From Chlorobium sp. (GTDB taxonomy: Bacteria > Bacteroidota > Chlorobiia > Chlorobiales > Chlorobiaceae), in assembly GCA_005862225.1 (NCBI GenBank), contig SZXV01000002.1:1-64000 (forward strand): 64,000 nt of DNA, read 5' to 3'. Shown here piece after piece: positions 61,377-64,000 of the stretch. The position numbers and the translations under genes were made by a program. Position 1 is the stretch's first letter, and each line of letters opens with the position of its first letter. The notes under the pieces are model-generated. The model was not told where the DNA came from. It did no database searches and worked only from the letters and a program-made list of their open reading frames with translations.

Positions 61377-61590
61377 TCGTTAACTCTTTTTATAATGGGT
61401 CAATACACTCTCTTTTATGAAGTCATGCTGTCACAACAGCAGGCCAGCGGAAAAAGGGCCCGCAATGGGGCACAAAACGATAATCAAGATAATAAATTAT
61501 AGAAGGAAACAGTAATCACAGGAAGCTCCAGCCATTCATTTCCCTCCGTGACCTGACGGTTGTCGCAAAGTCGAAATGGGCGCAAACTGG

Positions 61591-62445
61591 CTAAGGGACT
61601 AAGACAAGGCGGAAGCCAATGTAGGCGTTCCGGTAGTCAGGGGCGAAGGAGTTGCGAAGAGCCGTCCGGCAGAACATCGCAGGGCGATTCCAGCTCCCGC
61701 CACGAAGCACCCTGTCGAAACCGGATGAGGGCCCGGCAGGGTTTGTCACCGTCCCTGACGCTTTACATGCATCATAATAGCGTTCTCCGAACCAGTCACT
61801 GCACCATTCAGCAACATTCCCGTGCATGTTATACAACCCCAGCGCATTCGGCGCAAAACTGTTCACCGGAACCGTGTTTTCCCGGTTCACTCCTTTGGGA
61901 TTATTGTTGTACGGGTAGTTTCCGTCAACGTTTGCCTGATCTGTTGTCAGATTCTCTCCCGTATTGAACGGCGTAGTCGTGCCAGCGCGACACGCATACT
62001 CACGCTCAGCCTCCGTTGGCAAGCGGTACGTTTTTCCTGTCTGTTTCGACATCCATGCGCAATACGCGACCGCATCATTCCAGCTCACATGCACCACCGG
62101 ATGATTATCCTCGGATAAAGGCCGCACAAGACCCCTTATGCCGTGACGCCAGTTGACACCGTCCTGGAATCCGCCCTCGTTGTTTCCCAGATACACAACG
62201 CTAAAGCCCTCTTGTTCAGCATCTGTCTGGTACCCTGTGGCTTCGACAAATCGCCTGAACTCGGCTACCGTCACCGCATATTTGCTCATCGCAAAATCAC
62301 TGACCTTCACCTGATGCTGCGTCTCACTGTAGTCAAGCCCCAGGTTTTGCTGATAAAGCGCCTGGGCTTCTTCCCTCCCGACTTCACTCTCCGGGCTCCC
62401 CATCGTAAACTCACCACCGCTTATATGGACAAAGTCTTCAGGCAT
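61591..62445 (-). CDS. Formylglycine-generating-enzyme-fold protein, likely DGR target
   Basis: 284 residues with the FGE/sulfatase-modifying (C-type lectin) fold: FVHISGGEFTMGSPESEVGR, MSKYAVTVAEFRRFVEATGY, HPVVHVSWNDAVAYCAWMS, YRLPTEAEREYACRAG, GLYNMHGNVAEWCSDW and the end RVLRGGSWN...IGFRLVLVP. There is no signal peptide. The last 40 codons are unusual: in place of the AAC/AAT codons expected at many sites there are TCC, TTC, TAC, GCC, CTT, CGC and CCT, as adenine-directed mutagenesis would give. The catalytic cysteines of true FGE are not seen. It follows a membrane protein gene by 21 bases. Confidence 0.85.
   Translation of the reverse strand: MPEDFVHISGGEFTMGSPESEVGREEAQALYQQNLGLDYSETQHQVKVSDFAMSKYAVTVAEFRRFVEATGYQTDAEQEGFSVVYLGNNEGGFQDGVNWRHGIRGLVRPLSEDNHPVVHVSWNDAVAYCAWMSKQTGKTYRLPTEAEREYACRAGTTTPFNTGENLTTDQANVDGNYPYNNNPKGVNRENTVPVNSFAPNALGLYNMHGNVAEWCSDWFGERYYDACKASGTVTNPAGPSSGFDRVLRGGSWNRPAMFCRTALRNSFAPDYRNAYIGFRLVLVP
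61598..61700 (-). other. Putative DGR variable region (VR)
   Basis: Coding strand from GGCGGGAGCTGG to GGCTTCCGCCTT. Invariant anchors (RGGSW, CR, R-N, PD-R-N, IGFRLV) alternate with changed codons at the surface loop sites of the CLec fold. No template repeat or reverse transcriptase is in the window, so the source would be remote. This is a hypothesis from codon pattern only. Confidence 0.5.
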
Positions 62446-62466: not shown

Positions 62467-63060
62467 CTAAGAACGATCATAAAGCGCCGCTCTGACAGAC
62501 TGAAAATTCCGATAGGTTAGATAACCGAATGGAACACAAATGATAAACAAGACAAGATCGATTACTCCTATACCGACATATATGTCATCCGGCAATTTTA
62601 TTAAATCAATCTTTAAAAATGATTGAACACAATCAGGAGAGATAAATATGGCAAGATGAGCAAAGCTGAAAAGAGCCAGAAAATGAAATCCGTCAATGTA
62701 CAAAAACCAGAACACCTTGCGCATAAAAGACAATTCGGAAAATGGTGAGAGGAACCAGAGGTGGATCACAGGTAGCTCGTCTGGCATGAGAGAGTTGTTT
62801 GATGAAACACAGGTTTTGAGCAGACGGGATTCAATAAATGTGGTCGCCACAAATAAAGAAAAGAGAATTCCATACGTAGCGGAGAGTGATTCTCGAACTA
62901 CGGTGAACCCGACAAAATCAATAGATTTCCCTTGCAAAAACAAATAACCGCCGAGCGCATCGATAATGAAAGCGAGGTGAAGGGTACAAAGTACTTTCGT
63001 GTAGGTTTGCCAGGTTTTCGCGGCTCGTTCCAGTGCCGTTTCAAAAAGCTTGGATTGCAT
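62467..63060 (-). CDS. Membrane protein of unknown function
   Basis: 197 residues, about four hydrophobic segments (VLCTLHLAFIIDALGGYLFL, GILFSLFVATTF, VFWFLYIDGFHFLALFSFAHLAIFI, IGVIDLVLFIICVPFGYL). No recognised family. It is 21 bases upstream of the FGE-fold gene on the same strand, which suggests co-transcription. The lower GC of this stretch differs from the housekeeping genes before it. No gene is seen in 63061-63435 beyond it. Confidence 0.6.
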   Translation of the reverse strand: MQSKLFETALERAAKTWQTYTKVLCTLHLAFIIDALGGYLFLQGKSIDFVGFTVVRESLSATYGILFSLFVATTFIESRLLKTCVSSNNSLMPDELPVIHLWFLSPFSELSFMRKVFWFLYIDGFHFLALFSFAHLAIFISPDCVQSFLKIDLIKLPDDIYVGIGVIDLVLFIICVPFGYLTYRNFQSVRAALYDRS

Positions 63061-63435: not shown

Positions 63436-64000
63436 ATGCCAGCTAACGACACTCTGAACCAGACCCCCGAGCAAAACGCTCGCGACATCATCGACCGGCA
63501 GCTCACGGCGGCGGGATGGGCGGTTCAGAAAAAGAGCACGATCGACTGGCATATTTCAGCAGGCATAGCGGTGACGCACTACCCGATGAAGGATGGAACG
63601 GAGGCCGACTACGTTTTGTTTGTTGATCGAAAGCCGGTTGGAATCATCGAGGCAAAAAGAGAGGAGGAGGGGCATCACCTCTCCGCAGTAGAAGATCAAT
63701 CGTCGGGATATGCCGCCACCAAGCTGAAGCATCTGAACAACAACCCCTTGCCGTTTGTTTACGAAAGCACCGGCATCTTGACCCACTTTACCGACTACCG
63801 CGACCCCAAGCCACGCTCACGACCGGTGTTTACCTTTCACCGACCGGAAACACTCCGCGAGTGGCTCGGAAAGGAGCAAAGCCTGAGAGCACGAATGCAG
63901 CAGATGGCGGAGCTGCATCCGCAGGGTTTACGGGAGTGCCAGACCATCGCCATCAATAACCTGGAGCAATCGTTCAGTGACTCACGCCCAAGAGCGCTCG
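63436..64000 (+). CDS. hsdR: Type I restriction enzyme R subunit (5' part)
   Basis: The first 188 residues of an EcoR124/EcoEI-type HsdR, continuing outside the window. The N-terminal nuclease domain has the PD-(D/E)XK pattern: EADYVLFVDRKPVGIIEAKREEEG (Asp ... Glu-x-Lys). The ATG at 63436 gives MPANDTLNQTPEQNARDIIDRQL. The translocase, hsdS and hsdM are not visible. This and the FGE-fold gene mark the start of an accessory region. Confidence 0.88.
   Translation, partial: MPANDTLNQTPEQNARDIIDRQLTAAGWAVQKKSTIDWHISAGIAVTHYPMKDGTEADYVLFVDRKPVGIIEAKREEEGHHLSAVEDQSSGYAATKLKHLNNNPLPFVYESTGILTHFTDYRDPKPRSRPVFTFHRPETLREWLGKEQSLRARMQQMAELHPQGLRECQTIAINNLEQSFSDSRPRAL

Follow-up and report, generated by a model that had tools for sequence, protein, structure and literature searches.

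We place at roughly 85% the probability that a standalone gene for an FGE-sulfatase protein (FGE, formylglycine-generating enzyme) in a Chlorobium genome was once a remote target of a diversity-generating retroelement (DGR), of the kind served by the template repeat TR1, that it then lost its cis homing signals and that one variant has since been kept by ordinary selection. The gene (61591..62445, minus strand) encodes a SUMF1-like protein of 284 aa with a C-type lectin fold (Pfam PF03781, E=1.5e-64). It lies in the window, the 64,000-nucleotide stretch analysed here (C4:1-64000). The genome spans 2.5 Mb in 13 contigs and is given as 99.96% complete.

DGRs in the genome and their templates

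Reverse transcriptase (RT) matches occur at C4:269642, C4:536719 and C12:207517, and none of them falls within the window. The initial annotation, made from the window's sequence, had likewise reported no RT there and had proposed that a DGR lies in another part of the genome; RTs of the DGR type and template repeats with an A bias were indeed found outside the window. The genome has two DGRs, each on the same contig as the window. DGR1 comprises RT1 (C4:269375-270436), an HRDC-domain accessory protein alongside it and TR1 (C4:270469-270570), and is flanked by an NACHT-FGE fusion and a standalone FGE target. DGR2 has the order NACHT-FGE target, bAvd (PF22296), TR2, RT2 (C4:536509-537546), second NACHT-FGE target. 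Both RTs carry the IGNLTSQ motif and match PF00078. The third RT match was rejected; it is a short, apparently truncated ORF (217 aa, L041:3958-4611) that, judged by eye, resembles group II intron RTs.

The genes matched to TR1 and TR2 are textbook DGR targets. Four FGE genes depart from TR1 at 12-16 of its 28 adenines and have 0, 0, 2 and 3 mismatches among the 74 other positions; three genes differ from TR2 at 13-17 of 27 adenines and at 0/75 other positions. Two of the TR1 targets are remote, one at 168 kb on C4 and one at 58 kb on another contig (C3:58). The large FGE fusion proteins (L032:41-2788, L033:79-2724, L033:4576-7503 and L040) are TR-matched DGR targets, with NACHT-FGE architecture in the two that were scanned.

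The former variable region (VR) of the window gene, 34 codons from RGGSW to GFRLV (61603..61704, minus strand), differs from TR1 (102 nt) at 17/28 adenines and 13/74 other positions (Fisher p = 5e-5; because the rows are related, such values describe a contrast and are not strict probabilities). An active VR is expected to differ from its TR at template adenines only; true targets have 0-3 non-A mismatches to TR1 against 13 here, so no DGR currently targets the window gene. Across the 23 TRs collected from the genus, its fewest non-A mismatches to any one is 9. A whole-genome DNA search returned no further significant copy beyond TR1 and its four targets, and TR2 was rejected as a template for the gene, as TR2 and its targets belong to another subtype with no match to the window VR.

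The anchors and the codons singled out in the initial annotation (CGC, CCT, TTC, CTT, TCC, TTC, TAC, GCC and TAC) are present in the C-terminus. Aligned to TR1, eight of the nine stand opposite Asn codons and TCC stands opposite AGG; the claim that the third base is kept fails for CCT and TCC, and the codons GCG, ATG, ACG and GCT, which were not on that list, are off template as well. Differences confined to adenines had also been claimed; the enrichment at TR adenines is real, but the 13 non-A positions differ too. Searching the whole genome for an RT and a near-identical repeat, as that annotation had advised, thus recovered RT1, RT2, TR1 and TR2 but no repeat from which the window VR departs at adenines only. 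Part of the A-enrichment is expected from the protein anchors, because the non-target paralogue at C4:80 is also biased relative to TR1, though less strongly than the window gene.

The 3' tail and the post-stop element

Two DNA features are common to the 3' ends of active TR1-type VRs. The first is the exact 12-mer TTCGTCCCGTAG (12 nt, including the stop codon), present in 63/64 active targets versus 10/44 fixed genes; its synonymous sites are invariant across many genes, which indicates constraint at the DNA level. In the window gene, the corresponding tail is the degenerate IMH-like TTAGTCCCTTAG (61591..61602, minus strand). The second is a non-coding element of ~36 nt after the stop codon, of which a decayed remnant lies at 61555..61590 (minus strand). 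The best local score of the window's post-stop flank against the element is 38, with a maximum of 28 in 200 shuffles, and the flank of the orthologue L044 (introduced below) scores 34 against a shuffle maximum of 24; in the other orthologue, L043, the element is lost. A whole-window nhmmer scan with a model of the element placed 61555..61590 as the top hit but at E=0.48, which is not significant alone, and the claim of a decayed element therefore relies on the shuffle test and on L044. Active targets combine an IMH-like 3' end with the downstream element, and here the one is mutated and the other decayed.

Homing of the BPP-1 phage DGR needs the IMH, a downstream hairpin and VR/TR homology, all three (PMC3240598), which makes loss of the tail and element a plausible cause of freezing. 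By analogy, the Chlorobiaceae tail would be the IMH of this DGR type, and the post-stop element its recognition element.

Two further observations concern these signals. Directly after TR1, at L032:4584-4620 (C4:270583-270619), ~32-34 bp of the VR post-stop element are found inverted: compared with flanks of active VRs such as L032:6081-6112, the local score is 22 when reverse-complemented, where shuffles reach at most 13, and the direct orientation scores 5. An inverted element in this place could let the machinery distinguish VR from TR. Separately, an FGE fragment at L080:6001-6375 has a VR-type 3' flank and a VR that is still Asn-rich (RGGSWNNNAENCRSAYRNNNTPGNRNSN), and so resembles a freshly rewritten or unmutated target.

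Descent of the window gene

Trees were built from the protein bodies after removal of the VR. In them, C3:58 and G013:C8:24750, both TR-matched, form the sister group of the window clade, and G013:C8:18196, also TR-matched, branches outside the window clade and its sister targets. Supports for this nested position are 100/96 and 100/91, and 97-98 SH-aLRT in a second tree; the trees were read by parsimony, under which loss and gain of the target state are not strictly separable. Taken together, the tree and the decayed 3' element make it very probable that the window gene descends from a DGR target. To that extent the initial annotation's proposal of a remote DGR target holds as a statement about ancestry, while none of the 23 TRs now matches the gene at non-A positions.

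The strongest competing explanation, to which we give about a tenth of the weight, is that the gene never was a target. It would then be an ordinary FGE paralogue, the TRs and active VRs would derive from such genes, and the A-biased pattern would reflect common anchors combined with free surface positions. Non-target FGE paralogues do exist in the genome (C4:80, C10 and C11), and the A bias of C4:80, weak but detectable, fits this account. It fits poorly with the strongly supported nesting of the window clade inside active targets, with the sharing of a post-stop non-coding element, albeit in decayed form, and with the finding that C3:58, at 77% identity its closest paralogue within the genome, is a TR1-matched target.

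Conservation of the variable codons between species

A search of 65 congeneric genomes recovered the window gene's orthologues in two other species: L043 in genome G062 (94% aa identity to the window protein) and L044 in G013 (87%), the latter in the same rng-dapD-ctpA neighbourhood. The sample is thus three genes, two of them from MAGs. Each orthologue keeps 13/14 variable codons of the window gene (the single changes are M257I in L043 and I276V in L044) while the bodies have diverged by 5-14%; L043 and L044 differ from each other at 2/14 and share 12/14. An active VR, by comparison, is expected to vary between relatives at its TR-adenine codons. The TR1-matched locus C3:58 and its syntenic counterpart on G013:C8 serve as a control. 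Synteny between the genomes holds for both loci and the bodies are similarly diverged (203/235 aa identical for the window gene and its G013 orthologue, 201/234 for the control pair), yet the control pair keeps only 2/14 variable codons.

The contrast extends beyond this locus. Taking the most-diverged pair per orthologue group, pooled fixed groups (n=7) changed at 8/98 variable codons and 221/1644 body positions, compared with 87/112 and 248/1760 in pooled active pairs (n=8). The fixed groups gave no significant sign of stronger constraint on frozen residues than on the body (8.2% vs 13.4% changed, p = 0.16), and we claim constraint comparable to that of the body, not stronger. A second frozen group in this genome is the standalone FGE gene C4:80498-81295 (L036), whose VR-like end is residue-identical to that of L043:1963-2760 in another species.

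The initial annotation had predicted a hypervariable binder, which the 13/14 variable codons kept in each of two orthologues contradict; the differences between the window gene and its direct orthologues are spread over all base types, the outcome it had named as counting against its proposal. It now seems highly improbable that TR1 or an unseen TR still targets the gene from afar and makes it a hypervariable binder. The presence of RT1 and TR1 on the same contig and the A-biased mismatches would suit a live target, but such a gene should not differ from TR1 at 13/74 non-A positions and from each of the 23 sampled TRs at 9 or more, have a degraded IMH-like tail and 3' element, or keep its variable codons between species. 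Nor did the genome, with its stated completeness of 99.96%, yield another TR.

Directly upstream of the FGE gene, across a 21 bp gap, lies a gene for a predicted hydrophobic membrane protein of 197 aa (62467..63060, minus strand), a possible operon partner. We found no Pfam family for this protein. L043 has an 80% identical neighbour, a homologue adjoining the gene was not found in L044, and in G013 the sequence upstream of the FGE gene is different. Also near the FGE gene is the start of a Type I restriction HsdR-like gene (63436-64000, plus strand; PF04313).

The window protein

The protein ends in RGGSWNRPAMFCRTALRNSFAPDYRNAYIGFRLVLVP followed by the stop codon. Its AlphaFold2 model, built on an alignment of 110 homologues, has pLDDT 96.2 and pTM 0.93, against pLDDT 60 for a model from 20 sequences. 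The best fold matches in the PDB are FGEs (TM about 0.8), which together with the Pfam match bears out the FGE fold read initially from the sequence. The Treponema DGR variable protein 2y3c is also a match (E=1.3e-17), so that the protein has, with PF03781, the FGE/CLec domain and C-terminal VR of DGR variable proteins. PADLOC assigned it to no defence-system family.

In an alignment to solved FGEs, the first residue of the catalytic Cys pair is Arg in the window protein and the second is kept, and an enzyme role is therefore unlikely. Least credible of all is a catalytic FGE in which the VR pattern is irrelevant: FGEs are the best PDB matches, but the first active-site Cys is replaced, and many of the protein's closest relatives in the genus are DGR targets whose residues there are scrambled. 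The window protein is probably a ligand binder whose specificity is now fixed.

Possible capture of variants in genomes that retain DGRs

For the window gene, we infer the following order of events and cause of loss. An ancestor would have been rewritten by mutagenic retrohoming; its cis homing signals, the tail at the VR 3' end and the element after the stop, would then have been lost; and a single variant would since have been inherited vertically, kept at about the body rate in at least three species. In the genomes of at least two of the three (G000 and G013), DGR templates persist together with FGE targets that match them.

Frozen former VRs, near-unchanged between species, occur in at least seven FGE orthologue groups of the genus. 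With up to 4 non-A mismatches taken to define a target and 8 or more a fixed gene, the tree requires no fewer than 15 state changes. This figure may be inflated, since the template of an individual gene may have been missed; the seven cross-species groups are its solid part. We consider it somewhat more probable than the contrary that DGR-made binding sites are captured recurrently as fixed genes in green sulfur bacteria through loss of cis homing signals, and, as part of this reading, that several frozen groups sit in genomes still holding DGR templates and matched targets. Within the open-licence literature, an RT survey was the only paper found for DGRs in green sulfur bacteria, and earlier accounts may exist. 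Remnant remote targets were already known; what is new here is comparative evidence for freezing in genomes where DGRs persist.

DGRs have been studied as engines of continuing variation, and the fate of good variants has mostly been guesswork. With variable and frozen members of one family in the same genomes, it becomes possible to measure together how targeting was lost, what caused this in cis and how selection acted afterwards, and the conserved tail and element offer a simple sequence test for live FGE/CLec targets of this DGR type.

Comparison with known systems

One precedent is Nostoc all3226, an example of the remote DGR variable proteins of cyanobacteria (PMC7517822). Like the window gene, this paralogue has a C-type lectin fold, lies apart from the RT and retains a remnant of TR-VR homology; the idea there was based on one remnant, whereas here cross-species conservation, matched controls and cis-signal loss were measured. 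Strains of Treponema denticola, too, have leftover target genes that survive apart from their template, but in those strains the matching DGR itself is missing, while the Chlorobium genome still has a DGR with TR-matched paralogous targets (PMC4891356). The DGR variable protein TvpA of T. denticola (PDB 2y3c) has the same FGE-type C-type lectin fold and C-terminal variable region, and differs from the window protein, whose gene is without a matching template. In Thiohalocapsa PB-PSB1, DGR targets are diversified in trans and the DGR 1 target is without current variation, but that target matches its TR at all non-A sites and the window gene does not (PMC10907252). The large FGE and NACHT-FGE targets in the Chlorobium genome, for their part, fit the antigen-sensor reading put forward in the same study (PMC10907252).
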